This document shows positions 4,744 through 39,595 of a DNA stretch of 64,000 nucleotides, piece after piece. The stretch comes from Argopecten irradians (Eukaryota > Mollusca > Bivalvia > Pectinida > Pectinidae). Made by a program: the position numbers and the translations under genes. Each line of letters starts with the position of its first letter. The first letter of the stretch is position 1. Below the pieces are notes generated by a model. That model worked only from the letters and a program-made list of their open reading frames with translations. It did not search any database and was not told the origin of the DNA. The stretch spans positions 57,195,467-57,259,466 of the forward strand of contig NC_091134.1 of assembly GCF_041381155.1 (NCBI RefSeq). The letters run 5' to 3'.

Positions 4744-7700
4744 TTTTAGGTCATCTGACCCAAAGGGTCAGGATGACCTATAGTCATCATGTTTCGTCCG
4801 TCGTCGTGCGCCGTCCGCCGTCCGCCGTCCGCCGTGCGTTAACTTTTCACATTTTGAACTTCTTCTCAAGTTTGACCAGTGGGATTGAGCTGAAACTTAC
4901 CTGAAATGATCCTGAGATGGTCCCGACAAAGTGTTGTTATTTTTCGGGTCGATCCGAAATCCAAGATGGCCGCCAAAGCCGCCATCTTGAAAACACATTT
5001 TAAACTTCTTCTCAAGTTCTACCGGTGCGATTTGGCTGAAACTTGCATGAAATGATCCTGACATGGTCCCGACAAAGTGTTGTTATTTTTCGGGTCGATC
5101 CGAAATCCAAGATGGCCGCCAAAGGCGCCATCTTGAAAACACATTTTGAACTTCTTCTCAAGTTCTACCGGTGCGATTTGGCTGAAACTTGCATGAAATG
5201 ATCCTGACATGGTCCCGACAAAGTGTTGTTATTTTTCGGGTCGATCCGAAATCCAAGATGGCCGCCACAGCCGCCATCTTGAAAACACATTTTAAACTTC
5301 TGCTCAAGTTCTACCGGTGCGATTTGGCTGAAACTTGCATGAAATGATCCTGACATGGTCCCGACAAAGTGTTGTTATTATTCGGGTCGATCCGAAATCC
5401 AAGATGGCCGCCACAGGCGCCATCTTGAAAACACATTTTGATTTTTAGCTCACCTGGCCCAAAGGGCCGGTGAGCTTATGTCATGGCGCGGCGTCCGTCG
5501 TCCGTCCGTCCGTCCGTCCGTCCGTCCGTCGTCCGTCCGTCCGTCCGTCCGTCCGTCCGTCAACATTTCCTTTAAATCGCTACTAGTCATAGAGTTCTGC
5601 ATGGATTGTAACCAAATTTGGCCACAAACATCCTTGGGGGAGGGGAAATAGAACTTGTATAAATTTTGGCTCTGTCCCCCCCGGGGCAGGAGGGGCGGGG
5701 CCCAATAGGGGTAATAGAGGTAAATCCTTTAAATCGCTACTTGTCCTAGAGTTCTGCATGGATTGTAACCAAAATTAGCCACAAACATCCTTGGGGGAAG
5801 GGGAACAGAACTTGTATAAATTTTGACTCTGGTCCCCAGGGGGCAGGAGGGGCGGGGCCCAATAGGGGAAATAGAGGTAAATCCTTTAAATCGCTACTAG
5901 TCATAGAGTTCTGAATGGAATGTAACCAAATTTGGCCACAAACATCCTTGGGGGAAGGGGAACAGAACTTGTATAAATTTTGGCTCTGATCCCCCGGGGG
6001 CAGGAGGGGCGGGGCCCAATAGGGGTAATAGAGGTAAATCCTTTAAGTCGCTACTAGTCATAAAGTTCTGAATGGAATGTAACCAAATTTGGCCACAAAA
6101 CGTCCTTGAGGGAGGGGGAACAGACCTTGTATAAATTTTGGCTCTGACCCCCTGGGGGCAGGAGGGGCGGGGCCCAATAGGGGAAATAGAGGTAAATCCT
6201 TTAAATCTCTACTTGTCCTAGAGCTCTACATGAATTGTAACCAAATTTGGCCACAAACATCCTTGGGGGAAGGGGAACAGAACTTGTATAAATTTTGGCT
6301 CTGATATCCCAGGGGCAGGAGGGGCGGGGTCCAATAGGGGAAATAGAGGTAAATCCTTTAAATCACTACTTGTCATAGAGTTCTGAATGGAATGTAACCA
6401 AATTTGGCCACAAACATCCTTTGGGGAAGGGGAACAGAACTTGTATAAATTTTAGTTCTGCTCCCCCAGGGGCAGGAGGGGCGGGGCCCAATAGGGGTAA
6501 TAGAGGTAAATCCTTTAAATCGCTACTAGTCATAGAGTTCTGAATGGAATGTAACCAAATTTGGCCACAGACATCCTTTGGGGAAGGGGAACAGAACTTG
6601 TATAAATTTTGGCTCTGACCCCCGGGGGCAGGAGGGGCGGGGCCCAATAGGGGAAATAGAGGTAAATCCTTTAAATCGCTACTAGTCATAGAGTTCTGCA
6701 TGGTTTGTAACCAAATTTGGCAACAAACATCCTTGGGGGAAGGGGAACAGAACTCGTATAAATTTTGACTCTGGCCCCCCGAGGGCAGGACGGGTGGGGC
6801 CCAATAGGGGAAATAGAGGTAAATCCTATAAATCACTTCTTGTCCTAGAGTTTTGTTTGGATTGTGACCAAATTTGGCCATAAACATCCTTGGAAGAAGG
6901 GGAACAGAACTTGTATAAATTTTGGCTCTGACCCCCCGGGGGCGGGAGGGGTGGGGCCCAATAGGGGATTTAGAGGTTAATATTAAAATTCCTTCAGAAA
7001 AGAAACAATGAACCTGTATTCAGAACATTACTTGTCATTACAAACCAGGTGAGCGATACAGGCCCTCTGGGCCTCTTGTTCTCAAGTTCTACCAGTGCGA
7101 TTTGGCTGAAACTTGCATGAAATGATCCTGACATGGTCCCGACAAAGTGTTGTTATTTTTCGGGTCGATCTGAAATCCAAGATGGCAGCCACAGTCTCCA
7201 TCTTGAAAACACATTTTAAACTTCTTCTCAAGTTCTACCGGTGCAATTTCGCTGAAACTTGCATGAAATGATCCTGACATGGTCCAGACAAAGTGTTGTT
7301 ATTTTTCGGGTCGATCCGAAATCCAAGATGGCCGCCACAGGCGCCATCTTGAAAACACATTTTGAACTTCTTCTCAAGTTCTACCGGTGCGATTTGGCTG
7401 AAACTTGCATGAAATGATCCTGACATGGTCCCGACAAAGTGTTGTTATTTTTCAGGTCGATCCGAAATCCAAGATGGCCGCCACAGGCGCCATCTTGAAA
7501 ACACATTTTGAACTTCTTCTCAAGTTCTACCAGTGCGATTTGGCTGAAACTTGCATGAAATGATCCTGACATGGTCCCGACAAAGTGTTGTTATTTTTCG
7601 GGTCGATCTGAAATCCAAGATGGCAGCCACAGTCTCCATCTTGAAAACACATTTTGAACTTCTTCTCAAGTTCTACCGGTGCAATTTCGCTGAAACTTGC

Positions 7701-8101
7701 ATGAAATGATCCTGACATGGTCCAGACAAAGTGTTGTTATTTTTCGGGTCAATCCGAAATCCAAGATGGCCGTCACAGCCGCCATCTTGAAAACACATTT
7801 TGAACTTATTCTCAAGTTCTACCGAAGGGATTTGGCTGAAACTTGCATGAAATGATCCTGACATGGTCCAGACAAAGTATTGTTACATCTCTGGTTGATC
7901 CCAAATCGAAGATGACTACCATGACACTATGTCTAATTAATTTCCTATATTTAAAGGCCCTTGGGCCTCTTGTTTGAAATAAAATTTGTTGAAAGAAATT
8001 GAAAATGATCCTGACATGATCCTGACAAAGTGATACCATATATAATTAATTTTACTATTGTCAAGGTAGTCAGATGACCGTTAAGGCCCTTTGGGCATAT
8101 T
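4744..8101 (+). mobile_element. Pearl-like 146-bp element (copy B), split by a nested insertion
   Basis: It has the same TTTTTAGGTCATCTGACCC left hairpin and CCGT microsatellite as copy A. Four 146-bp units follow (about 4854-5440), then a foreign element (5442-7080), then about six more units (7081-7875) and the shared right-hand segment. The terminal hairpin reads AAGGCCCTTTGGGC but the usual CCTCTTGTT ending is altered, so this right end is decayed. Units at about 7089 and 7527 are nearly identical at 438 bp, showing a three-unit duplication inside the array. Confidence 0.7.
5442..7080 (+). mobile_element. Second-family pearl-like element nested in copy B
   Basis: It begins TTTTTAGCTCACC with hairpin CTGGCCCAAAGGGCCGG. 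A perfect-looking TCCG tetranucleotide run follows (about 5488-5560), then about nine tandem units of 157 bp (about 5565-6975) rich in GGGGCAGGAGGGGCGGGGCC. It ends with GCCCTCTGGGC and CTCTTGTT at 7080. It interrupts a 146-bp unit of copy B: host sequence 'cattttga' lies to the left and 'ctcaagttc' to the right. No clear target-site duplication is visible. The architecture is identical to copy A, but unit sequence is unrelated. Confidence 0.7.
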
Positions 8102-22736: not shown

Positions 22737-25700
22737 ATTTTTAGGTCATCTGACCCGAAGGGTCAGGATGACCTATAGTCATCATGTTTCGTCGTGTCGT
22801 CGTCGTCCGTCGTCCGTCGTCCGCCGTGCGCCGTGTGTTAACTTTTCACATTTTGAACTTCTTCTCAAGTTCTACCGGTGCAATTTGGCTGAAACTTGCA
22901 TGAAATGATCCTGACATGGTCCTGACAAAGTGTTGTTATTTTTCGGGTCGATCCGAAATCCAAGATGGCCGCCACAGCCGCCATCTTGAAAACACATTTT
23001 GAACTTCTTCTCAAGTTCTACCGGTGCGATTTGGCTGAAAATTGCATGAAATGATCCTGACATGGTCCCGACAAAGTGTTGTTATTTTTCGGGTCGATCC
23101 GAAATCCAAGATGGCCGCCACAGCCGCCATCTTGAAAACACATTTTGAACTTCTTCTCAAGTTCTACAGGTGCGATTTGGCTGAAACTTGCATGAAATGA
23201 TCCTGACATGGTCCCGACAAAGTGTTGTTATTTTTCGGGTCGATCCGAAATCCAAGATGGCCGCCACAGCCGCCATCTTGAAAACACATTTTGAACTTCT
23301 TCTCAAGTTCTACCGGTGCAATTTGGCTGAAACTTGCATGAAATGATCCTGACATGGTCCCGACAAAGTGTTGTTATTTTTCGAGTCGATCCGAAATCCA
23401 AGATGGCCGCCACAGCCGCCATCTTGAAACCACGTTTTGAACTTCTTCTCAAGTTCTACCGGTGCGATTTGGCTGAAACTTGCATGAAAGGATCCTGACA
23501 TGGTCCCGACAAAGTGTTGTTATTTTTCGGGTCGATCCGAAATCCAAGATGGCCGCCACAGCCGCCATCTTGAAAACACATTTTGAACTTCTTCTCAAGT
23601 TCTACTGGTGCGATTTGGCTGAAACTTGCATGAAATGATCCTGACATGGTCCCGACAAAGTGTTGTTATTTTTCGGGTCGATCCGAAATCCAAGATGGCC
23701 GCCACAGCCGCCATCTTGAAAACACATTTTGAACTTCTTCTCAAGTTCTACAGGTGCGATTTGACTGAAACTTGCATGAAATGATCCTGACATGGTCCCG
23801 ACAAAGTGTTGTTATTTTTCGGGTCGATCCGAAATCCATGATGGCCGCCATAGCCGCCATCTTGAAAACACATTTTGAACTTCTTCTCCAGTTCTACCGG
23901 TGCAATTTGGCTGAAACTTGCATGAAATGATCCTGACATGGTCCCGACAAAGTGTTGTTATTTTTCGAGTCGATCCGAAATCCAAGATGGCCGCCACAGT
24001 CGCCATCTTGAAACCACGTTTTGAACTTCTTCTCAAGTTCTACCAGTGCGATTTGGCTGAAACTTGCATGAAAGGATCCTGACATGGTCCCGACAAAGTG
24101 TTGTTATTTTTCGGGTCGATCCGAAATCCAAGATGGCCGCCACAGCCGCCATCTTGAAAACACATTTTGAACTTCTTCTCAAGTTCTACTGGTGCGATTT
24201 GGCTGAAACTTGCATGAAATGATCCTGACATGGTCCCGACAAAGTGTTGTTATTTTTCGGGTCGATCCGAAATCCAAGATGGCCGCCACAGCCGCCATCT
24301 TGAAAACACATTTTGAACTTCTTCTCTCAAGTTCTACCGGTGCGATTTGACTGAAACTTGCATGAAATGATCCTGACATGGTCCCGACAAAGTGTTGTTA
24401 TTTTTCGGGTCGATCCGAAATCCATGATGGCCGCCATAGCCGCCATCTTGAAAACACATTTTGAACTTCTTCTCCAGTTCTACCGGTGCAATTTGGCTGA
24501 AACTTGCATGAAATGATCCTGACATGGTCCCGACAAAGTGTTGTTATTTTTCGAGTCGATCCGAAATCCAAGATGGCCGCCACAGTCGCCATCTTGAAAC
24601 CACGTTTTGAACTTCTTCTCAAGTTCTACCAGTGCGATTTGGCTGAAACTTGCATGAAAGGATCCTGACATGGTCCCGACAAAGTGTTGTTATTTTTCGG
24701 GTCGATCCGAAATCCAAGATGGCCGCCACAGCCGCCATCTTGAAAACACATTTTGAACTTCTTCTCAAGTTCTACTGCGATTTGGCTGAAACTTGCATGA
24801 AAGGATCCTGACATGGTACCGACAAAGTGTTGTTATTTTTCGGGTCGATTCGAAATCCAAGATGGCCACCACAGCCGCCATCTTGAAAACACATTTTGAA
24901 CTTCTTCTCAAGTTCTACCGGTGCGATTTGACTGAAACTTGCATGAAATGATCCTGACATGGTCCAAACAAAGTGTTGTTATTTTTCGGGTCGATCCGAA
25001 ATCCATGATGGCCGCCATAGCCGCCATCTTGAAAACACATTTTGAACTTCTTCTCCAGTTCTACCGGTGCGATTTGACTGAAACTTGCATGAAATGATCC
25101 TGGCATGGTCCCGCCAAAGTGTTGTTATTTTTCGGGTCGATCCGAAATCCAAGATGGCCACCACAGCCGCCATCTTGAAAACACATTTTGAACTTCTTCT
25201 CAAGTTCTACCGGTGCGATTTGACTGAAACTTGCATGAAATGATCCTGACATGGTCCTTACAAAGTGTTGTTATTTTTTAGGTTGATACGAAACCCAAGA
25301 TGGCCGCCACAGCCACCATCTTGAAAACACATTTTGAACTTCTTCTCAAGTTCTACCGGTGCGATTTGACTGAAACTTGCATGAAATGATCCTGACATGG
25401 TCCTGACAAAGTGTTGTTATTTTTTAAGTTGATCCGAAACCCAAGATGGCCGCCACAGCCGCCATCTTGAAAACACATTTTGAACTTCTTCTCAAGTTCT
25501 ACCGGTGCGATTTGGCTGAAACTTGCATGAAATGATCCTGACATGGTCCCGACAAAGTGTTGTTATTTTTCGGGTTGATCCGAAATCCAAGATGGCAGCC
25601 ACAGCCGCCATCTTGAGAACATATTTCGAACTTCTTCTCGAGTTCTACCGGTGCGATTTGGCTGAAACTTGCATGAAATGATCCTGACATGGGCCCGACA

Positions 25701-25931
25701 AAGTATTGTTAACATCTCTGGTTGATAACAAATCGAAGATGGCTACCATGACACTATATCTAATTAATTTCCTATATGTTAATTCCCTTGTGCCTCTTGT
25801 TTGAAATAAAATTTGTTGAAAGAAATTGAAAATGATCCTGACATGGTCCTGACAAAGTGACACCATATATAATTAATTTTACTATTGCCAAGGTAGTCAG
25901 ATGACCGTTAAGGCCCTTTGGGCCTCTTGTT
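22737..25931 (+). mobile_element. Pearl-like element with ~20 units of 146 bp (copy C)
   Basis: The left end is TTTTTAGGTCATCTGACCC with a GTCGTCCGTCGTCCG microsatellite. About 20 tandem units run from about 22853 to 25690, nearly all exactly 146 bp. The right segment and hairpin AAGGCCCTTTGGGCCTC end at CTTGTT (25931). Unit types repeat in a four-unit higher-order block: units at 23748 and 23894 reappear at 24334 and 24480. Each unit contains an inverted pair of CAAGATGGC(C/G)GC motifs. Runs of 63-residue open frames over these units shift frame each period (146 is not a multiple of 3) and are not genes. Confidence 0.75.
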
Positions 25932-36622: not shown

Positions 36623-39595
36623 ATGATTTCATTAATTATACAGTTCTTATCAATTCTCTTTACCATTTCCACAACACTGAGAATCAACGCACCAGAGTGG
36701 CCAACGACTTATAAGGTAAGACCACTTCTTGATTTACATTTTACATGTTTAAAACACTAAATCAATTGAGTAGAAATGTACTGGTCAGCGATTGAATCGA
36801 AGATTATCTAACTTCCAGACCCACCGGAAGTGGTTCTTCTTCGTATATGGCTGTGGAAATGGGACGACAGTGTGTGTTAAGACCCCTGTGTATCAATAAA
36901 GTGTTCTGGATATTCTAATGAGAGAAAAACCCACAAGTTAATAGTTTTATCACCTGGATGTTAGAAGCAGGCGACGAAAAGAAATTATAGAAATTTAAGA
37001 GGTGATACTTTTTTGACCAATATATGCAATGAATCTAATGCAAAAAGACGTAATTTGGGGGTTGCATTGTGAATTAACAAACAACCATTCTGTATTATTT
37101 CTATATTAATGTATGTTTTCTCCAGGCATGCGTGTACGTGCAGACTGAGCAGGAATATATCCCTATGGGATGGTACGTAGATGGCAGTACACACAGAATG
37201 AGACTCGACAGCTACGGTATCCCGGAAGGTAATATTCAGCTGTTGTTCGTCAGAAGAAACAGATAATCCTCAAAAGTTATATAAGTCTAAACATGTCACA
37301 TGATTCGCTATCCCAAGTCAATTGTTGTGCTATTGAATGTAAAAAAAACTAGTGTTCGCCAATATGTTCGCTAATGTGTAAGGGTTAAATCAAGAGTAGA
37401 GGACGTATTGGTATATGTTGTCCTTCCATATAAAACTATCTTTTGCTCTTTTTAAGATAGAAAAGATAATCACACATTTGCTGCCGACGGTTTCAGCTAC
37501 GCCTGCTCACACCTTGGACCTCCATTATATGTCTATCTGTATCACTATGACAACGGGAAGGAATACGACATCTTTCCGGCACCAACAAAACCTTATCACC
37601 AGTGCACTGCATAGTAAGTATGAGTCAGAGAACAAACAAAACCTTATCACCAGTGCACTGTATAGTAAGTATGGGTCAGAGAACAAACAAAACCTTATCA
37701 CCAGTGCACTGCATAGTAAGTATGAGTCAGAGAACAAACAAAACCTTATCACCAGTGCACTGCATAGTAAGTATGAGTCAGAGAACAAACAAAACCTTAT
37801 CACCAGTGCACTGCATAGTAAGTATGAGTCAGAGAACAAACAAAACCTTATCACCAGTGCACTGTATAGTAAGTATGGGTCAGAGAACAAACAAAACCTT
37901 ATCACCAGTGCACTGTATAGTAAGTATGGGTCAGAGAACAAACAAAACCTTATCACCAGTGCACTGTATAGTAAGTATGGGTCAGAGAACAAACAAAACC
38001 TTATCACCAGTGCACTGTATAGTAAGTATGGGTCAGAGAACAAACAAAACCTTATCACCAGTGCACTGTATAGTAAGTATGGGTCAGAGAACAAACAAAA
38101 CCTTATCACCAGTGCACTGTATAGTAAGTATGGGTCAGAGAACAAACAAAACCTTATCACCAGTGCACTGTATAGTAAGTATGGGTCAGAGAACAAACAA
38201 AACCTTATCACCAGTGCACTGTATAGTAAGTATGGGTCAGAGAACAAACAAAACCTTATCACCAGTGCACTGTATAGTAAGTATGGGTCAGAGAACAAAC
38301 AAAACCTTATCACCAGTGCACTGTATAGTAAGTATGGGTCAGAGAACAAACAAAACCTTATCACCAGTGCACTGTATAGTAAGTATGGGTCAGAGAACAA
38401 ACAAAACCTTATCACCAGTGCACTGTATAGTAAGTATGGGTCAGAGAACAAACAAAACCTTATCACCAGTGCACTGTATAGTAAGTATGGGTCAGAGAAC
38501 AAACAAAACCTTATCACCAGTGCACTGTATAGTAAGTATGGGTCAGAGAACAAACAAAACCTTATCACCAGTGCACTGTATAGTAAGTATGGGTCAGAGA
38601 ACAAACAAAACCTTATCACCAGTGCACTGTATAGTAAGTATGGGTCAGAGAACAAACAAAACCTTATCACCAGTGCACTGTATAGTAAGTATGGGTCAGA
38701 GAACAAACAAAACCTTATCACCAGTGCACTGTATAGTAAGTATGGGTCAGAGAACAAACAAAACCTTATCACCAGTGCACTGTATAGTAAGTATGGGTCA
38801 GAGAACAATGTTCATAAAAAGATTAAGCAGATTTTAAATATTTTATCAACGTTTTCAGAAGTTTATTTTATTTCTGGATTTTCTGTTGGCAATGTTACAG
38901 CAACATGACGACGCTGTATCCGCGAAGCCCGCTGTTACCAGGGTTGGAATTTATTGAGCAAGTGAAGGACAACTTCACCACATATAACCATTGGAGAGCA
39001 GACTACTTTCTCTTTACAAATGATTACTTCTTCCACGTTGTCAACGGGCTGCCATACAAGTAAGTTTATAGCGCCAATTAGCTACCATACAAGTACGTTC
39101 ATATCACCAACAGGATGCTGTACTATGATTCGCAATGCCAAGATTCGCATCGCCAATTAAATGCCGTACAAGTAAGACGATTTGAAACATCGCTAACGGG
39201 CTGCTGTGCAAGATTTGGCGATGCCAATGAACTGTCATACAAGTAAAATGATTCACATTGCCAATGAACTGCCATACATGTCAGCTATCAATGACACAAT
39301 CGGGCTTCCATACAAATAAGTTGATTAATTAATGTCACCATCGGGTTACCATAGTAAGTTTACCCATGTCGCCAAATTTTCACATTTTTTGTGCCATTAT
39401 TGAGTGCTATCATTCACAAAATATTAATATTATCACTTGAAAAACACAAACTTATATAGTTTTGTAATTTGTACATGTTCTTTTGGTAGGGTTTACGTGG
39501 ACGGTGTTGAGAAGACGTTTGTCTACATAGAGAATGTGACGTTAGATGAAAGCGTCTTCCTTGTACCTAATGACGTCACTTGCAAGGCAGGATGA
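36623..39595 (+). CDS. Secreted ependymin-like (LolA-like fold) protein
   Basis: Five exons splice in phase: 36623-36715, 37126-37228, 37457-37613, 38901-39059, 39490-39595, giving 205 residues, close to the usual ependymin length. Residues 1-22 (MISLIIQFLSILFTISTTLR) are a signal peptide. The mature part has exactly four cysteines (C33, C82, C115, C202). Order of landmarks matches ependymins: WYVDGSTHRMRLDSYG early, then YVYLYHYDNGKEYDI before a cysteine, and a C-terminal VTLDESVFLVPNDVTC resembling the family's 'DPSVF.PP..C'. Four N-glycosylation sequons are at N70, N119, N142 and N186. Ependymin-related proteins are secreted, often calcium-binding, and expanded in molluscs. No ligand can be assigned. 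Introns 3 and 4 are invaded by tandem copies of their own 5' splice sites. Family call is moderate; the coding model is strong. Confidence 0.75.
37583..38812 (+). repeat. 24 x 51-bp tandem array duplicating the exon-3 3' end and its splice donor
   Basis: The unit is 51 bp: ACAAAACCTTATCACCAGTG, CACTG(C/T)ATA, GTAAGTATG(A/G)G, TCAGAGAACAA. The first copy overlaps the end of coding exon 3. A GTAAGTAT donor occurs at 37614 and every 51 bp up to 38787, 24 in all, with no drift. Units 1, 3, 4 and 5 are the GCATA/ATGAG type; unit 2 and units 6-24 are the GTATA/ATGGG type. Because 51 is a multiple of 3 and two plus frames and one minus frame lack stops, long artificial open frames (497, 427 and 411 residues) span it. 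In the true exon frame each unit reads GCA TAG or GTA TAG, a stop. Confidence 0.92.
39036..39366 (+). repeat. Decayed tandem copies of the exon-4 3' end and splice donor in intron 4
   Basis: The real border reads AACGGGCTGCCATACAA then GTAAGT. About eight imperfect copies follow at 30-45 bp steps: AATTAGCTACCATACAAGTA, AATTAAATGCCGTACAAGTA, AACGGGCTGCTGTGCAAG, AATGAACTGTCATACAAGTA, AATGAACTGCCATACATGTC, AATCGGGCTTCCATACAAAT, and ATCGGGTTACCATAGTAAGT, plus one weaker. Between them 'tatcgccaa'-like spacers recur. Confidence 0.75.

Follow-up and report, generated by a model that had tools for sequence, protein, structure and literature searches.

Intron 3 of a five-exon gene in the window (the whole stretch of 64,000 nucleotides of Argopecten irradians DNA that was analysed) opens with 24 tandem copies of its own 5' splice site, each carried in a 51-bp unit that joins the end of coding exon 3 to the start of the intron. 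The likely explanation is a minisatellite of the mirage type, in which a duplicate of the exon-3/intron-3 boundary grew to 24 copies that are tolerated. Mirages are known from lancelets as minisatellites duplicating an exon-intron boundary in the Adh, troponin C, globin and PGBD5 genes, and they are described as not interfering with splicing (PMC3087553, PMC3902484). Since arrays of this lancelet type lie at several other genes here too, the structure is probably repeat DNA that the genome tolerates, and not a device serving a purpose of its own. The array would then be neutral, a reading favoured by the presence of the same structure at unrelated genes, by the loss of donors in old copies within intron 4 and by the reported harmlessness of the lancelet arrays to splicing. 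A preliminary description of the window had proposed U1 recruitment, a tuning of splicing or truncated isoforms as functional roles and, as an equal alternative, neutral slippage; its anatomy, its U1 complementarity and its stops after the first donor stand, its gene label does not, and the neutral-slippage alternative is the one favoured here.

The anatomy given in the preliminary description, a 51-bp unit of exon end, donor and intron start repeated 24 times with GTAAGTAT in each copy, was reproduced by TRF (period 51, 24.0 copies, 99% matches) and by reading all 24 units, every one of which contains GTAAGTAT (24/24). Each unit comprises 30 exon and 21 intron bases, unit 1 overlapping exon 3 and units 2-24 being intronic. 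The description had counted 24 U1 sites competing with the productive donor; there are 24 donors, but the productive one is among them and the extra ones number 23. As in the lancelet mirages, a tandem duplication with copied splice signals appears to span the exon-intron boundary, as judged from the reading frame and from the phase in which exon 3 joins exon 4. Only two of the 51 columns vary (27 C/T and 40 A/G), and they are linked, giving a type A (units 1, 3, 4 and 5) and a type B (units 2 and 6-24). Type A, the more exon-like of the two, is found near the exon (units 1, 3-5), which fits a re-seeding of the array from its first unit in this one case, and the near-identity of the units in this one assembly is compatible with recent turnover. 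With two variable columns in 51, the probability that none of the eight donor columns varies is 71% by chance, and the retention of GTAAGTAT in every copy therefore says nothing about selection. The coordinates of all features are collected in Table 1.

Table 1. Coding exons, presumed donor and donor arrays of the gene, in positions of the window
Feature	Position	Strand	Basis
Coding exon 1, with ATG; donor GTAAGA	36623..36715	+	gene model
Coding exon 2	37126..37228	+	gene model
Coding exon 3; its final 30 bases, 37584-37613, belong to unit 1	37457..37613	+	gene model, unit reading
Donor array, 24 x 51 bp	37584..38808	+	TRF and reading of units
Presumed productive donor GTAAGTAT, phase 2	37614..37621	+	gene model, U1 5' end of the same genome
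Coding exon 4	38901..39059	+	gene model
Second, decayed donor array	39040..39370	+	repeat search within the gene; borders between units drawn by eye
Coding exon 5, TGA stop at 39593-39595	39490..39595	+	gene model

When the five exons are joined through the donor at 37614 across introns bounded by GT..AG, they encode a protein of 205 amino acids, intron 3 being 1287 bases long. That this first donor alone gives the full-length protein, as had been proposed, agrees with the frame, which is open there only: the later donors append an in-frame TAG-TAA. Use of donors 2-4, that is of one to three extra units, leads to a stop at 117 amino acids, and because the unit equals 17 codons the donors beyond the fourth stop likewise at 117. 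Judged from the sequence, donor 37614 would be the one used. The boundary duplicate may have grown by replication slippage or unequal exchange, and it would be tolerated since transcription reaches the exon-proximal donor before all others and definition of exon 3 would commit this donor; the other 23 donors would be intronic, and either spliced out or seldom used. Where a later donor was used, the appended TAG-TAA would result in a 117-amino-acid product or in a transcript subject to nonsense-mediated decay.

At the start of intron 4, too, the end of the preceding exon is repeated together with its donor, and two neighbouring boundaries of one gene have therefore formed donor arrays, one young and one old. 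This second array, which the preliminary description had overlooked, starts with the last 20 bases of exon 4, the donor (39060) and 13 intron bases, followed by nine degenerate copies of 31-42 bp, with one of 15 bp; a possible tenth copy at 39371 is too doubtful and does not enter the comparison. An intact GTAAGT is found only at 39060 and 39354, hence in one of the nine downstream copies (a further copy appears as GTAAGT across a gap in the pairwise alignment, its actual sequence being GTAAGA). Identity of the nine copies to the boundary is 36/54 for the donor hexamer versus 74/108 for the last 12 exon bases, and 36/48 versus 74/96 once the truncated copy is left aside. In the old copies of intron 4, donor and flank thus decayed at about the same rate, and these nine units give no sign of protection.

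Donor arrays are not confined to this gene. Among the matches listed, 17 distinct arrays were traced to their 5' edge, two of them via triples of GTAAGTAT, four via triples of CAGGTAAGT and 11 via AGGTAAGT at period 51, three places on contig C2 within 6.4 kb being counted as one array. Since all 17 were found via a donor word, their location at donors is partly built in, and the presence of a real exon is the new part. In nine of the 17, what forms the first unit is an open coding exon's end, with a peptide in frame up to a GTAAGT or GTGAGT donor, the introns being of phase 0 in two cases, of phase 1 in four and of phase 2 in three. Seven of these nine exons match a protein: a NIT/guanylate cyclase protein, mitofusin, DENND11, a TSP1 repeat and ANKRD13 above the Pfam cut-offs, and in addition ADAMTS-5 (5e-8) and biliverdin reductase A (0.0023). 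The remaining two are identified by their open frame, L081 giving no match in Pfam and L093 (102 amino acids) none in Pfam or PDB. No exon was recognised in the other eight arrays (L076, L077, L078, L085, L087, L089, L090/L096 and L092), of which L089 and L096 could start after a very short exon and were scored as having none. By eye the units of the 17 arrays differ from each other, except for the look-alike pair L089/L090. At the mitofusin gene (L080; C1:6463090-6468539, minus strand) 42-bp units extend over about 5.4 kb, listed with gaps and read in part, and at the biliverdin reductase gene the first donor is a GTGAGT unlike the later donors.

Words were also counted over the whole assembly. 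GTAAGTAT occurs 71,329 times and its reversal 65,319 times, while tight triples number 14,377 versus 1,532, so that 20.2% of the words start a triple compared with 2.3% of the reversals (ratio 8.6). For CAGGTAAGT the single counts are 19,404 versus 5,409 and the triples 3,100 versus 91, corresponding to shares of 16.0% and 1.7% (ratio 9.5), and AGGTAAGT at an exact period of 51 is found 201 times versus 25 times for the reversed word. The change of CAGGTAAGT to CAGGAAAGT, which kills the donor, gives 449 triples, seven times fewer; its own reversal forms five, so that a non-donor word can also exceed its reversal in counts that are not normalised by single occurrences. The one acceptor word tested, TTTTCAGG, shows no triple excess (388 versus 836 for the reversal, likewise not normalised). 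The reversed-word controls are noisy, with 1,532, 91, 836 and 5 triples for GTAAGTAT, CAGGTAAGT, TTTTCAGG and CAGGAAAGT, respectively, and triples are matches rather than arrays and are inflated by long arrays. By these counts, arrays often contain the donor words tested; neither the number of arrays nor the exact size of the excess follows from them. Rates per Mb computed from the matches listed, among which places on one strand may be missing, are not relied upon. At C1:5402872-5403573 (plus strand), CAGGTAAGT is repeated mostly at a spacing of 88 bp.

Pure tolerance does not explain why the share of words that start a tight triple is 8-9-fold higher for two donor words than for their reversals. 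One speculative possibility, made less likely by the noise of the reversed-word controls, is that minisatellites in this genome arise preferentially at 5' splice sites, and that hundreds of introns may open with a tandem repeat of the exon end and donor that precede them. After duplication of a donor, the copy adjacent to the exon would plausibly still be usable and the rest would become intron; after duplication of an acceptor, splicing would first meet the copy closest to the branch point and use it, the extra units would enter the mRNA and the duplication would be purged. Such a filter would explain the preference for donors over acceptors, but not that for donors over ordinary intron sequence, which would need either a mutational hot spot or a first unit anchored in coding sequence that re-seeds the array. 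Coding selection on the first unit, by which it keeps re-seeding the array, is one possible reason for seeding at donors. If this holds true, donor arrays would supply cryptic donors, and material for the growth of introns, on a lasting basis. With several unrelated genes affected, the choice of the spliceosome among dozens of near-identical donors becomes directly testable, as does the question whether splice donors are hot spots for the birth of repeats; the mitofusin intron and the gene described here represent natural experiments on 5' splice site competition.

Conservation of the donors was compared in 12 arrays, several of them covered in part, namely the nine exon-anchored ones together with L076, L090 and L092/L098 (L077, L078, L085, L087 and L089 being left out). 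In the raw comparison the hexamer of the donor varies slightly less than the remainder of the unit in 11 of the 12 (p = 0.001), a result to be discounted because the search that yielded these arrays had required perfect donors. Against a matched control, consisting of offsets of the same array that pass the same filter, the mean rank of the donor is 0.39 versus 0.5 expected (p = 0.15) and the mean difference 1.6 points (8/12, p = 0.05). This ascertainment-matched trend is weak and selection on donors within arrays is not claimed: nothing firm points to selection on the extra donors, and the data agree with a role as well as with its absence. A functional role may nevertheless exist, given that donor words are common in arrays, that a weak, non-significant trend towards donor conservation is left, and that alternative transcripts are reported for human repeats at exon-intron boundaries (PMC2812944), which also speaks against pure tolerance.

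One candidate function is that of a U1 platform or decoy, by which the 23 extra strong donors would hold U1 snRNP on intron 3 and suppress premature cleavage and polyadenylation, or would reduce splicing efficiency according to copy number. The eight-base pairing with U1 that had been claimed for each copy holds against the U1 of the same genome: 42 matches to U1 were found, all ten inspected begin with ATACTTACCTG (10/10), and GTAAGTAT can pair with this start over eight contiguous bases. The predicted duplex energy is -8.2 kcal/mol versus -14.0 kcal/mol for the full consensus, and the three exon bases before the donor are unpaired with U1 in the standard register. This pairing speaks for the platform, as do the frequency of donor words in arrays genome-wide and the weak trend towards donor conservation in diverged arrays. 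On the other hand, the donors of intron 4 decay about as fast as their flank (in nine units only), the 24 units of intron 3 are too alike for selection to show, and an intron of 1287 bases would be short for needing protection by U1, so that we regard this explanation as unlikely. U1 snRNA genes occur in tandem at C7:7837784-7877915 with a spacing of about 1.18 kb.

An error of assembly, the true copy number being much smaller or much larger, is likewise improbable. Near-identical units are hard to assemble; yet the two unit types follow an ordered pattern, diverged arrays of the same kind are present at other genes of the assembly, and the objection does not reach the decayed array in intron 4. 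Least probable is a regulated poison element, by which later donors would yield the truncated protein or decay-prone transcripts and set the protein level: the in-frame TAG TAA after later donors would suit it, but any GTAAG donor in a phase-2 intron yields an in-frame TAA, so that the stops come free, and six of the nine exon-anchored arrays elsewhere lie on phase 0 or phase 1 introns, where the donor itself brings no such stop.

Three further candidates were considered. The whole array used as a DNA query finds a single place in the assembly (846 Mb, 1508 contigs), and the exact 29-base pattern around the donor has 24 matches assembly-wide, all inside the intron-3 array; a mobile or dispersed element was rejected since this exact part of the unit occurs at this locus only. 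Recursive splice sites were rejected since the units carry ATAGTAAG and lack AG/GT; they read ATAGTAAGT, and splicing after TATAG would leave TAAGT and regenerate no GT. AACAA is found near both ends of the unit, four bases out of register, and the strict identity at the breakpoints amounts to one base; with this single shared base no microhomology mechanism is claimed for the origin of the array.

The array resembles several known systems. Units of the lancelet Adh3 mirage measure 10-72 bp, and for lancelet mirages concerted evolution within clusters is reported (PMC3087553, PMC3902484). The lancelet globin mirages lie at both 5' and 3' boundaries, whereas the one acceptor word tested here shows no excess, and haplotypes of lancelet BflGb6 carry six and three units of 150-160 bp compared with 24 near-identical units here. 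A polymorphic 31-bp VNTR of the human CBS gene, c.1444_1467+7(16_21), with 16-21 copies (PMC2630376), has by its coordinates a unit of 24 exon and 7 intron bases and likewise joins an exon end to its donor, but it concerns one human locus. Tandem genomic duplication at an exonic AGGT creates a new intron (PMC3443670) and also multiplies splice signals, while in the present gene both donor and intron were already in place, the intron has taken up further copies of the donor without a new intron arising, and the units carry ATAGTAAG rather than AGGT. Human internal tandem repeats with units of about 30 bp touch exon-intron boundaries of duplicated genes, and repeat-retaining transcripts in most intron cases as well as novel introns were reported (PMC2812944); in contrast to the array described here, they have about four copies on average and lie in segmental duplications. 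For an intron minisatellite of abalone, the printed consensus lacks GTAAGT (PMC6905558). In the literature searched, with partial coverage, boundary-spanning minisatellites are described from lancelets and from human loci, and donor arrays across a whole genome are not reported; here they are present at several unrelated genes of one other genome.

The preliminary description had called the gene ependymin-like, a label that the comparisons do not support. Its product matches no Pfam family at E <= 1, the gene is absent from the 18 PF00811 matches in the genome at E <= 1, and phmmer against the translations of these matches gives E >= 1.4. The hhalign comparison with a thin alignment of three sequences gives a probability of 0.2, within the range of 20 shuffled controls. 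By eye only, the cysteine spacing resembles that of ependymins. Elsewhere in the genome, near-identical ependymin-family exons lie in opposite orientation about 44 kb apart (L010/L016 at C5:45.42 Mb and L011/L017 at 45.38 Mb), and a cluster of ependymin-family exons is present at C3:49.46-49.49 Mb. The window also contains 146-bp satellite units in up to about 20 copies, at 1706-2847, 4848-5439, 7075-7914 and 22847-25711.
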